Shown here: piece by piece, positions 2,689-33,782 of the stretch
How the letters are laid out: every line of letters starts with the position of its first letter
How positions within the stretch are numbered: the first letter of the stretch is position 1
Origin: an uncultured Bacilli bacterium
GTDB lineage: Bacteria > Bacillota_I > Bacilli_A > RF39 > UBA660
NCBI GenBank assembly: GCA_904374795.1
Contig: CAJFEV010000006.1
Coordinates: 1 to 33,782 of the forward strand
Length of the DNA: 33,782 nt
Reading direction: 5' to 3'
Position numbers and translations under genes: made by a program
Notes under the pieces: generated by a model
What the model saw: only the letters and a program-made list of their open reading frames with translations
Databases searched by the model: none
Told to the model about the DNA's origin: nothing

Positions 2689-3006
2689 AAAAACGTATAT
2701 ATACATTTCTTTTTTTAAAGCATTTTCAAGAAATCTGCTTGATTTTTCTAGAACAAAATTTCGAAAAAATATTTTTCTTAATTGCAAAAAACTTTGCAAT
2801 CTAAATTTCAGCTTTTTAAGTAAATATTAAAGTTTTTTTAAGAGAAAAGAGCTTAAAATAATAAAAATTCTAAAAAATTGCAAAAAGGGATAAATTTGTG
2901 TTAAAATAATAATATATAATTACAAGAGTTGGAAAACTTACATTTTAAAAGAAGAATTTTATTACATTAAGAAAAGAAATATTTATAGGTAGAAAAGAGC
3001 GGAGAT
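2689..3006. other. gene-free AT-rich stretch with hairpins and a promoter
   Basis: No coding region is seen. It holds a weak hairpin with a T-run (TCAAG/CTTGA, 2726-2747), possibly the DUF421 terminator. A perfect 8-bp hairpin, ATTGCAAA-AAAC-TTTGCAAT (2781-2800), lacks a T-run. The promoter of the following pseudogene lies at 2878-2907, and a leader of about 90 nt runs to 3006. Confidence 0.5.
2878..2907 (+). promoter_or_regulatory. extended -10 promoter of the surface-protein pseudogene
   Basis: TTGCAA (2878-2883), an 18-bp spacer and TGT-TAAAAT (2899-2907). A leader of roughly 90 nt follows before the ATG at 3007. Confidence 0.5.
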
Positions 3007-3969
3007 ATGGAGAAAACAAAAGAGAAAAAAGTAGTAGTAATTATCCTTATAGTCTTATTAGGTATATGCATAGGCGTAAGCTATGCTTACTGGCAACTAG
3101 TTTTAAGACAAAATAGTGAAAATAAAGTAGCGAGTAGTTGTATTAGCATTGAATTAATTGATGAATCAAATGCTATAAAAATGGAAGAAGCATATCCTTT
3201 AAGTGATGAAGAAGGAATGAAGACAACGCCATATACCTTTACGCTCAAAAATACCTGTGACACGTTCATAAGTTATGAGATTGTATTAGGAATGCTAGAT
3301 ACAACGACATTAAAAAGTGAGTATGTAGCAGCTGTATTAGATTATAATCAAATAAAAACATTAAACAATTATGAAGAAACCACACTAGAAGGCTATAAAG
3401 AAGGAAGAATATTACAAAAAGGAAGTCTTTCTCAAAAAGATGAAGTCACATACAACTTAAGATTATGGATGGATGAAGATACGCCATTATTAGATGAAAC
3501 AATGAACCAAGTATTTGAAAGTAAAATAGTAGTAATAGCAAGCATTAGTAATTATAGTCCAGTCGAACAAGGATTTACCACACTTGCCGATGCCATGATC
3601 GTAAATGAATATCAATCAACAAACCTAGAATCAGCAAAAGAAATAATTGCATCCAAGCAAAAACCGGATTTCACCAAATCCGCACCTATCATAATTTGGC
3701 AAGAGAACCATGAATTGAATCAAACAACGGTAACCTCAACCATGCCTCATCCAAACTTAGTAGGAAATGGAGAGGCTTATACAGCCAATTTAACTGCAGA
3801 AAACATCTTACCAACCATCGGAACAGGATATGCCTTTAACTCAGAAACAGGAAGATATAATTTAACAGGTTATGAGTATATAGATCCAACCACATTAAAT
3901 TATAGTAATGACTACTATTATTGCAGTTCTGATTTCTCTACCGATGAAAATGATTTAATAAATGTATAA
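3007..3969 (+). CDS. N-terminal fragment of TasA-like surface protein
   Basis: This 320-residue fragment keeps the signal/membrane segment, the TasA-like beta domain and part of the linker. It could still be made and exported as a truncated protein, because it has its own promoter, and GGAG lies just ahead of its ATG (spacing only 2 nt). It ends at the TAA at 3967, where the frame otherwise continues. Confidence 0.6.
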   Translation: MEKTKEKKVVVIILIVLLGICIGVSYAYWQLVLRQNSENKVASSCISIELIDESNAIKMEEAYPLSDEEGMKTTPYTFTLKNTCDTFISYEIVLGMLDTTTLKSEYVAAVLDYNQIKTLNNYEETTLEGYKEGRILQKGSLSQKDEVTYNLRLWMDEDTPLLDETMNQVFESKIVVIASISNYSPVEQGFTTLADAMIVNEYQSTNLESAKEIIASKQKPDFTKSAPIIIWQENHELNQTTVTSTMPHPNLVGNGEAYTANLTAENILPTIGTGYAFNSETGRYNLTGYEYIDPTTLNYSNDYYYCSSDFSTDENDLINV

Positions 3970-32695: not shown

Positions 32696-32986
32696 ATGAT
32701 AAAATATTTAAAAGATGAAAATTTTGAAGAAGAAATAAAAAATGGAAAAGTTTTAGTAGATTTTTATGCTGACTGGTGTGGCCCTTGTAAAGCCCTAGGC
32801 GAAATTTTAGAAACAGTAGATAACATAAATATCTTAAAAATCAATGTGGATGAACATCAAGATTTAGCGATTCAATTCGGCGTTATGTCTATTCCAACAA
32901 TTCTTTTATTTGAAGACGGAAAGCAAAAAAAGAAAAATATCGGTTTAATGAATAAAGAGGATCTAGAACATTGGATTGAAGATTAA
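32696..32986 (+). CDS. trxA: thioredoxin-like protein
   Basis: Small dithiol oxidoreductase. The 96-residue protein has the active site W-C28-G-P-C31-K, VDFYADWCGPC before it and the cis-proline loop SIPTILLF. At 96 residues it is slightly shorter than standard thioredoxin (about 105), missing a few residues of the first helix. AGGAG precedes the ATG and a good terminator follows. Co-transcription with cvpA is likely. Partners such as thioredoxin reductase are not in the window. Confidence 0.92.
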   Translation: MIKYLKDENFEEEIKNGKVLVDFYADWCGPCKALGEILETVDNINILKINVDEHQDLAIQFGVMSIPTILLFEDGKQKKKNIGLMNKEDLEHWIED

Positions 32987-33001: not shown

Positions 33002-33032
33002 AAAAGCGGTCATAGATTTCTATGCCGCTTTT
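33002..33032 (+). terminator. terminator of cvpA-trxA
   Basis: AAAAGCGG and CCGCTTTT plus an inner CATAG/CTATG stem with ATTT loop; one bulged T at 33010. Confidence 0.85.
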
Positions 33033-33062: not shown

Positions 33063-33090
33063 TTGACAAATGATCTTTTTTTGATAAAAT
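33063..33090 (+). promoter_or_regulatory. promoter placing transcription start at the ATG
   Basis: TTGACA (33063-33068), a 16-bp spacer and TGA-TAAAAT (-10 at 33085-33090). The expected start, 7 nt further, is 33097, the first base of the start codon. Confidence 0.65.
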
Positions 33091-33096
33091 ACTTAC

Positions 33097-33564
33097 ATGG
33101 AGATATTTAGTCAAAAAGAATTTAATCTTAAACAAGTAGAATATTTTGAATTGTTCAATCAAAATATGATTGAAGAAGAACAAATCACTTATGAAAAACC
33201 CAAGTTTGGCGAGATATGGATTTGTAAAATTCCAGTTCTAATAGTAGGGGAGGAAGTATTTTTCAAAACAATGAAACGTCCCGTTTTAATAATTGATGAT
33301 ACTCATGAAAACTTTATGAAAAATGATACCAAAAATTATTATGGACTAAAAATAACTTCTCAAAAAGATTCTTATCAAAGAATAAAAATTGAAAATTTAA
33401 CAAATACAGGCTTATATAAAGAATCTTTTATCCGCATTGAACTTCCCATAAAAATTGAACAAGAACAGTTCTTATATCGAATAGGTATTTATGATAAAGA
33501 AAAAGTAGAGAAAATTAAAAAGAAAATTTTAAAAAAACTAAAAGAGGATTCTTGGACTGAATAA
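33097..33564 (+). CDS. orphan MazF/PemK-like protein, probably leaderless
   Basis: A 155-residue protein. After about 38 residues it follows the MazF/PemK beta-barrel pattern: KPKFGEIWICKIP, the KRPVLIIDD strand, 'YYGLKITSQ', then GLYKESFIRIELPIKIE and YRIGIYDKEKVEKI, which correspond to the usual 'GdIw', 'RPvlVis', 'plTs', 'gL.kpS.v' and 'iG.l..e.l..i' elements. MazF proteins are RNA endonucleases paired with an antitoxin. No antitoxin gene is next to it: upstream is the trxA terminator, downstream a truncated frame. No ribosome binding site is present. Assignment is by pattern only. Confidence 0.6.
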   Translation: MEIFSQKEFNLKQVEYFELFNQNMIEEEQITYEKPKFGEIWICKIPVLIVGEEVFFKTMKRPVLIIDDTHENFMKNDTKNYYGLKITSQKDSYQRIKIENLTNTGLYKESFIRIELPIKIEQEQFLYRIGIYDKEKVEKIKKKILKKLKEDSWTE

Positions 33565-33589
33565 ATTTCTAAATGAATAAGTAAAGAAA

Positions 33590-33697
33590 GTGGATGAGTT
33601 AAATGAACGATATTCAAAAATTTTACAGTTTTATGTATTAGGAAATAAATTAAAAACAACGATTTTAAATAATTATAAAATTTATAGGTTAATTTAA
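33590..33697 (+). pseudogene. truncated 35-codon frame, possible HD-domain protein N-terminus
   Basis: From GTG 33590 the frame reads VDELNERYSKILQFYVLGNKLKTTI and so on, ending TAA at 33695-33697. 'FYVLGNKLKTTI' resembles the first helix of small HD-domain hydrolases, which normally continue with a long histidine-rich core that is missing. The stop falls within the 22-bp terminal repeat. Start signal is weak. It may be an interrupted gene end or a chance frame. Confidence 0.3.
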
Positions 33698-33726
33698 GTT
33701 CGGATATTCGAAATAGATATTCGAAT
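33691..33726. repeat. TTCGAATAT repeat, right copies in inverted orientation
   Basis: 33691-33712 is the reverse complement of 39-60 with one mismatch in 22. A half copy, GATATTCGAAT (33716-33726), matches the reverse of 38-48. Confidence 0.6.
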
Positions 33727-33730
33727 TTTG

Positions 33731-33764
33731 AAAAATAGGCAGATAAATACAATGCCTATTTTTT
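33731..33764. terminator. terminator-like hairpin
   Basis: AAAAATAGGC / GCCTATTTTT, 10-bp stem with a 13-nt loop and T-run on both strands; just after the right repeat. Confidence 0.7.
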
Positions 33765-33782
33765 AATGAGAATAAAATTCAT

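Follow-up and report, generated by a model that had tools for sequence, protein, structure and literature searches.

We analyzed the whole contig CAJFEV010000006.1 of assembly GCA_904374795.1 (33,782 nucleotides; hereafter the window), which is contig C6 of the 1.3-Mb, 96-contig genome G000, rated 89% complete, of an uncultured Bacilli bacterium (Bacillota_I; Bacilli_A; RF39; UBA660). Toward its end lies an open reading frame (ORF) encoding a 155-aa protein, which an initial annotation, made from the sequence alone, had described as a MazF/PemK-like orphan toxin with an apparently leaderless mRNA, i.e., one beginning at the initiation codon itself. The gene and its parts are listed below, "one-gene homologues" denoting the 15 genes of the genus in which the toxin stands without a separate antitoxin.

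33063–33068 (+): putative −35 hexamer TTGACA; perfect also in G015 and G014, 2–3 mismatches in 11 of the 15 one-gene homologues
33082–33090 (+): putative extended −10, TGA followed by TAAAAT (33085–33090, one mismatch to TATAAT); position kept in 15/15, TG in 11/15
33097 (+): likely transcription start, the A of the ATG, placed by the spacing from the −10
33097–33564 (+): MazF/PemK-like ORF, 155 aa, stop codon included; Pfam PF02452, PHROG 1936, modelled MazF fold; open in 15/15 one-gene homologues
33097–33201 (+): N-terminal extension, residues 1–35; only in the one-gene clade; antitoxin-like start
33277–33279 (+): Arg61 codon; aligned with EndoA R25, invariant in 21/21 relatives
33355–33357 (+): Thr87 codon; aligned with EndoA T48, invariant in 21/21 relatives

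Sequence, fold, and candidate active site all mark the window protein as MazF-like, and it is a predicted RNase. The Pfam PemK_toxin profile (PF02452) matched residues 37–145 with 29.9 bits against a cutoff of 23.1, and PHROG 1936 ("MazF-like growth inhibitor") matched at 4.7e-8. Across the 16 rows of alignment A1, i.e., the window protein and its relatives, PF02452 was recovered at E 0.01 or better in 13, the L013 protein scoring below the cutoff and the L018 protein giving no match. An AlphaFold2 model built from seven alignment rows (pLDDT 78.6, pTM 0.70; a first model from five rows, with pLDDT 39.3, was set aside) had MazF-type structures at the top of its Foldseek list (best E 9.5e-6), the first 50 rows being MazF/PemK-type structures or their complexes. 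VIA-align placed the same model on MazF structures with Z up to 12.6 over residues 34–150, in rows covering residues 30–152 and leaving the N-terminal extension outside the fold comparison. A profile of 21 relatives found its best solved match in Bacillus subtilis EndoA/MazF, though at E 0.16, and this alignment pairs Arg61 and Thr87 with EndoA R25 and T48, an Arg and a Thr that we take to be catalytic. These results bear out the MazF/PemK-like identity proposed in the initial annotation, together with the structural comparison and the active-site conservation that it had named as checks. Searched as a single sequence, the window protein retrieved only ribosomal L38 from PDB (E 0.25 or worse); it had no match in NCBIfam or among phage records, and PADLOC gave no match. 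The toxin was found in 15 of 36 genus genomes, 14 of which carry the one-gene form, and its core showed dN well below dS in all five homologue pairs.

Next, we considered how the gene might be expressed. TTGACA and TAAAAT are separated by a 16-nt spacer and form the best promoter match of the surrounding 1.1-kb region (11/12), only six bases (33091–33096) lie between the −10 and the ATG at 33097, and no Shine-Dalgarno (SD) sequence precedes this ATG. A −10 hexamer one mismatch from TATAAT ends 6–8 nt before the ATG in all 15 one-gene homologues, which come from 14 genus genomes and are related genes instead of 15 independent events; the distance is 6 nt in eight genes, 7 nt in six, and 8 nt in one. 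SD sequences are likewise absent from all 15, while a TG precedes the −10 in 11 and a perfect −35 TTGACA occurs only in G000, G015, and G014. Within 80 nt of the ATG, no other bin of 3 nt contained a −10-like hexamer in more than 2/15 genes, and mononucleotide shuffles of the upstream regions reached on average 1.5 of 15 (maximum 7 in 2000), even as these regions have diverged to a median ungapped identity of 0.39 at positions −60 to −17 and the genes have different neighbors. The leaderless layout described in the initial annotation is credible because its position is conserved across homologues, not on account of the single site in the window, and we infer that the mRNA starts at the toxin AUG.

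This layout is rare in the genome. In a 430-kb sample of the assembly (the window and 20 further stretches; ORFs 90 aa or longer from a crude ORF caller), 298 of 382 ORFs had an SD sequence at some candidate start, and the TANAAT motifs of SD genes peaked about 18–26 nt from the start, with none at 3–10 nt. TANAAT was located 5–8 nt upstream of six candidate ATGs, three of them in genes without SD: the window toxin, an HD-like gene (L038:1242–1688, − strand), and L035:12395–13228 (− strand). The last was not counted as leaderless because a second in-frame ATG, 9 nt upstream, overlaps its hexamer, and leaderless-type starts thus amount to 2/382 ORFs with the window toxin included. Among other ORFs of the genus loci the layout was seen in 5/116, three of which are orthologues of the HD-like gene. 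This second leaderless-type gene lies on contig C19 of G000 (Pfam HD_4, E 0.0056, below cutoff); compared with its seven closest homologues (L095–L101), it has a TATAAT ending 6 nt before the ATG, as do L097, L098, and L099.

We then turned to relatives outside the one-gene clade. Toxin matches were obtained in 17 of 291 genomes sampled at family level and in 25 of 385 sampled at order level (overlapping samples), bringing in relatives that have no extension. Overall, a ~65-aa candidate antitoxin ORF of one family directly precedes the toxin or its pieces in 19 genomes (G018, G059, G101, G123, G137, G197, G275, G288, G293, G326, G335, G352, G383, G399, G427, G444, G446, G455, and G485), G018 being the only congener. 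This count excludes fragments and distant loci (L002/L058, L051/L080, L052, L053, L081, L082, L085, L086, and L087), L054–L056, which had no toxin-profile match, and the viral L088–L090. The two-gene form, as in G018, G288, and others, belongs to the same toxin family as the window gene, but its toxin has no extension and follows an antitoxin ORF that is SD-led in 15 of 17 distinct sequences, the two without SD (L067 and L079) being near-identical. The toxin frame is broken beside a whole antitoxin in G275, G293, and G326, as would be expected if the toxin is costly, and the candidate antitoxin itself is broken in G383 and G197. The one-gene form is set apart by a branch supported at 100/100 in a toxin tree of 28 sequences, and we place the two-gene form as probably ancestral because of its wider spread.

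A corresponding antitoxin was not seen at the window locus. No ORF of the antitoxin family adjoins the toxin in the window or in the one-gene loci, and the profile of the ~65-aa family had no match in the genome (89% complete), although an antitoxin of another family would escape this search. The initial annotation had noted the missing neighbor, which is supported here, and had suggested a genome search for a small antitoxin. A separate antitoxin gene beside the toxin, the mark of a type II toxin–antitoxin system, was thus not found in the window genome by profile search. Across the 36 genus genomes the profile matched only in G018, which has the two-gene form, leaving 35 without it, and in a class-level sample it matched 4/395 genomes, all belonging to the same family. 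Two further hits were left unused: one in G138 was not recovered in three forward frames, and one in G040 matched weakly near the end of a frame of 381 residues. Pfam assigned no family to the antitoxin: member 1 of alignment A2 had two hits far below cutoff, and the eight A2 antitoxins together touched 11 families, none of them in more than two members (HTH_3 and three others reached two), with a best E of 0.0003 (DUF2960, one member). A "CAP repeat" chain in PDB (E 8.5e-8) was rejected as homology, since its score is the sum of five repeats, none above 12.3 bits.

The toxins of the one-gene clade carry instead an N-terminal extension of ~35 aa that the two-gene toxin of alignment A1 does not have. 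With hhalign, residues 3–24 of the extension aligned with residues 1–22 of the antitoxin (score 16.4, P 0.0028). None of 300 column shuffles of the extension reached this score, nor did any of 42 control windows from nine other families (maximum 13.7), and with a first set of eight antitoxins none of 400 antitoxin shuffles reached the score. Column rotations were dropped as a control, as they retained the matching segment. We regard the extension as probably, though not certainly, derived from the antitoxin. Neither the extension's antitoxin-like character, nor the two-gene relatives, nor the conservation of the layout had figured in the initial annotation.

Given these patterns, we tentatively propose, as a reading that is quite possible yet short of probable, that a two-gene toxin–antitoxin pair collapsed into one leaderless, possibly self-restrained MazF-type toxin. 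The ancestor would have been an operon with an SD-led ~65-aa antitoxin ORF directly before a MazF-type toxin. One lineage would have lost the separate antitoxin, its toxin would have gained the ~35-aa segment, probably from the antitoxin N-terminus, and a promoter would have become fixed so that transcription begins at the toxin AUG. A leaderless mRNA would then be translated into an endoribonuclease with the MazF fold, which may be restrained by its own N-terminal segment and perhaps also by modest leaderless translation, and whose role may be to slow growth by cutting RNA. The actual 5′ end, the RNase activity, the cis restraint, the order of events, and the growth-slowing role are all set out here as deductions. 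An extended version, in which the leaderless mRNA of the self-restrained toxin would also stay translatable when SD-led initiation fails (under stress, or once the toxin has damaged the anti-SD), seems to us unlikely; if it is true, a single gene would act as a switch through its promoter position combined with its cis-antitoxin.

Several observations weigh against the collapse of a two-gene pair. The hhalign probability of the extension/antitoxin match is just 11%, one of 400 extension shuffles reached the score with the first set of eight antitoxins, and at E 0.5 HMMER matched none of the one-gene proteins to the antitoxin. The extension helix is modelled at low confidence (pLDDT about 40–56 in residues 1–30), with no cis-binding seen in the model, and selection on the extension is weak, with dN lower than dS in four of the five pairs and roughly the same in the fifth. 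The gene is missing from 21/36 genus genomes, and the toxin tree is rooted by midpoint only. For the promoter, sites of this kind are at chance level in the 1.1-kb region (6 found, 6.9 expected from shuffles), and the −35 is poor, with 2–3 mismatches in 11/15 homologues.

Part of this evidence would fit a solitary MazF that has been domesticated, with an extension bearing no relation to any antitoxin and with low leaderless expression or an unlinked protein keeping the toxin in check, as has been proposed for MazF-mx of Myxococcus xanthus. The extension is indeed short and poorly conserved, and by HMMER it matches the antitoxin weakly; MazF-mx is itself solitary, and its control by MrpC is disputed (PMC4803016). 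We nevertheless regard this as rather unlikely, given that the extension/antitoxin score exceeded 300/300 shuffles and 42/42 control windows with both ends in register. It is also conceivable that the gene is not leaderless in the cell, i.e., that transcription starts elsewhere or translation begins at an internal start codon, and that the promoter resemblance is incidental in an AT-rich region where such sites are as frequent as in shuffles. The fixed 6–8 nt spacing in 15/15 homologues with diverged flanks, the hairpin between the upstream thioredoxin gene and the toxin, and an extension kept open with dN < dS in 4/5 pairs all make this improbable. Least of all do we expect an inactive or decaying remnant: the patchy distribution (15/36 genus genomes) and a decayed second copy in the same genome would suit one, but a toxin domain whose dN is far lower than its dS in 5/5 pairs, Arg61 and Thr87 invariant in 21/21, and open frames in 15/15 one-gene genes render it very improbable.

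The initial annotation had also raised, as speculation, a self-reinforcing loop in which the toxin damages SD-led initiation, e.g., by cutting the anti-SD, while its own leaderless mRNA stays translatable. The conserved leaderless layout (15/15) in an SD-using genome would agree with such a loop, as would two precedents, i.e., the removal of the 16S rRNA anti-SD by the M. tuberculosis toxin MazF-mt11 (PMC12274833) and the predominance of leaderless transcripts among M. tuberculosis toxin–antitoxin pairs (32/37; PMC3898074). On the other side, the E. coli model linking MazF to leaderless mRNAs was, according to a review (PMC9031893), not reproduced by other laboratories. We also compared 15 motifs in the 15 one-gene ORFs with 500 synonymous-codon shuffles, uncorrected for multiple tests, and neither ACA (z −1.1) nor TACA (z −1.4) nor TACAT (z −1.3) was clearly depleted, and self-protection of the mRNA was accordingly set aside as a candidate. 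Other z-scores were −2.4 for AAT and, in excess, 2.8 for TCCT, 2.6 for TTCCT, and 3.2 for TTT. The loop was not supported here, and we hold it to be unlikely.

The window protein shares with B. subtilis MazF/EndoA (PDB 4mdx and 4me7; PF02452) the toxin domain, the fold, and the aligned Arg and Thr, but is only ~20% identical to it and differs in having no separate antitoxin, a ~35-aa extension, and a leaderless layout. E. coli EzeT (PMC4826407 and PMC4803016) is a precedent for the proposed arrangement in carrying an antitoxin segment in cis at its N-terminus; EzeT is however a zeta kinase, not a MazF RNase, and its antitoxin domain is larger, the first 83 residues of the protein having been removed in the test reported there. 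MazF-mx is likewise a solitary MazF with no linked antitoxin, although passages of PMC4803016 describing it refer to neither an antitoxin-like extension nor a leaderless layout. M. tuberculosis is a precedent for leaderless toxin–antitoxin transcripts (PMC3898074), but there leaderless mRNAs are common, at a quarter of genes, whereas here they are rare and the toxin is alone. Among the titles and abstract openings listed by searches of open-licence literature, none described a leaderless one-gene MazF with an antitoxin-like extension. One bacterial family pairs a two-gene toxin–antitoxin form with a single antitoxin-less clade having a fixed leaderless start, and how a cell tolerates a lone toxin, and what use a leaderless mRNA has in an SD-using genome, become testable with the two-gene cousins as controls.

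PHROG 1936 covers the same toxin domain family but consists of phage proteins, and the viral relatives found here have no extension: three IMG/VR viral contigs (L088, L089, and L090) encode MazF-like relatives at 37–38% identity, none of which is accompanied by an antitoxin-profile match. In L089, a terminase-like ORF, identified by eye, lies near the toxin relative. Plasmid records searched with the G288 toxin gave no match.

Two further features precede the promoter in the window.

32696–32986 (+): thioredoxin gene (trxA), upstream; Pfam Thioredoxin 5e-26
33002–33032 (+): hairpin lying after trxA and ahead of the promoter, probably a terminator; −15.5 kcal/mol, surrounding stretch z −4.4

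The hairpin was not called by a consensus terminator scan of the region. Hairpins of −6.9 kcal/mol or better occur within 100 nt upstream in 13/15 one-gene loci (counted with no shuffle control); many of them have a T run and reach the promoter. A thioredoxin-like ORF, named by eye, lies upstream in 10/15 one-gene loci, once with an intervening ORF, and an rpsB-like ORF, also by eye, is next downstream in 7/15 (L008, L009, L011, L012, L016, L017, and L018), which may or may not matter. Near the contig end, at 33690–33770, the window holds two strong adjacent hairpins (−24.7 kcal/mol, z −6.55), possibly terminators.

Additional toxin copies were observed at two loci. On contig C26 of G000 (L002), decayed pieces of a second copy, with 91% and 84% identity, stand before a whole HD-type ORF, and the window, which keeps the toxin, retains no more than a short initial part of that HD ORF (window positions 33331–33428, 33530–33666, and 33590–33697 compared). 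Set against each other, the two loci look like a reciprocal decay of a duplicated toxin and HD pair. Contig C26 of G004 (L004) holds two one-gene toxin copies, at 1103–1567 and 3001–3468, with a 419-aa ORF between them, and both copies have the leaderless layout.
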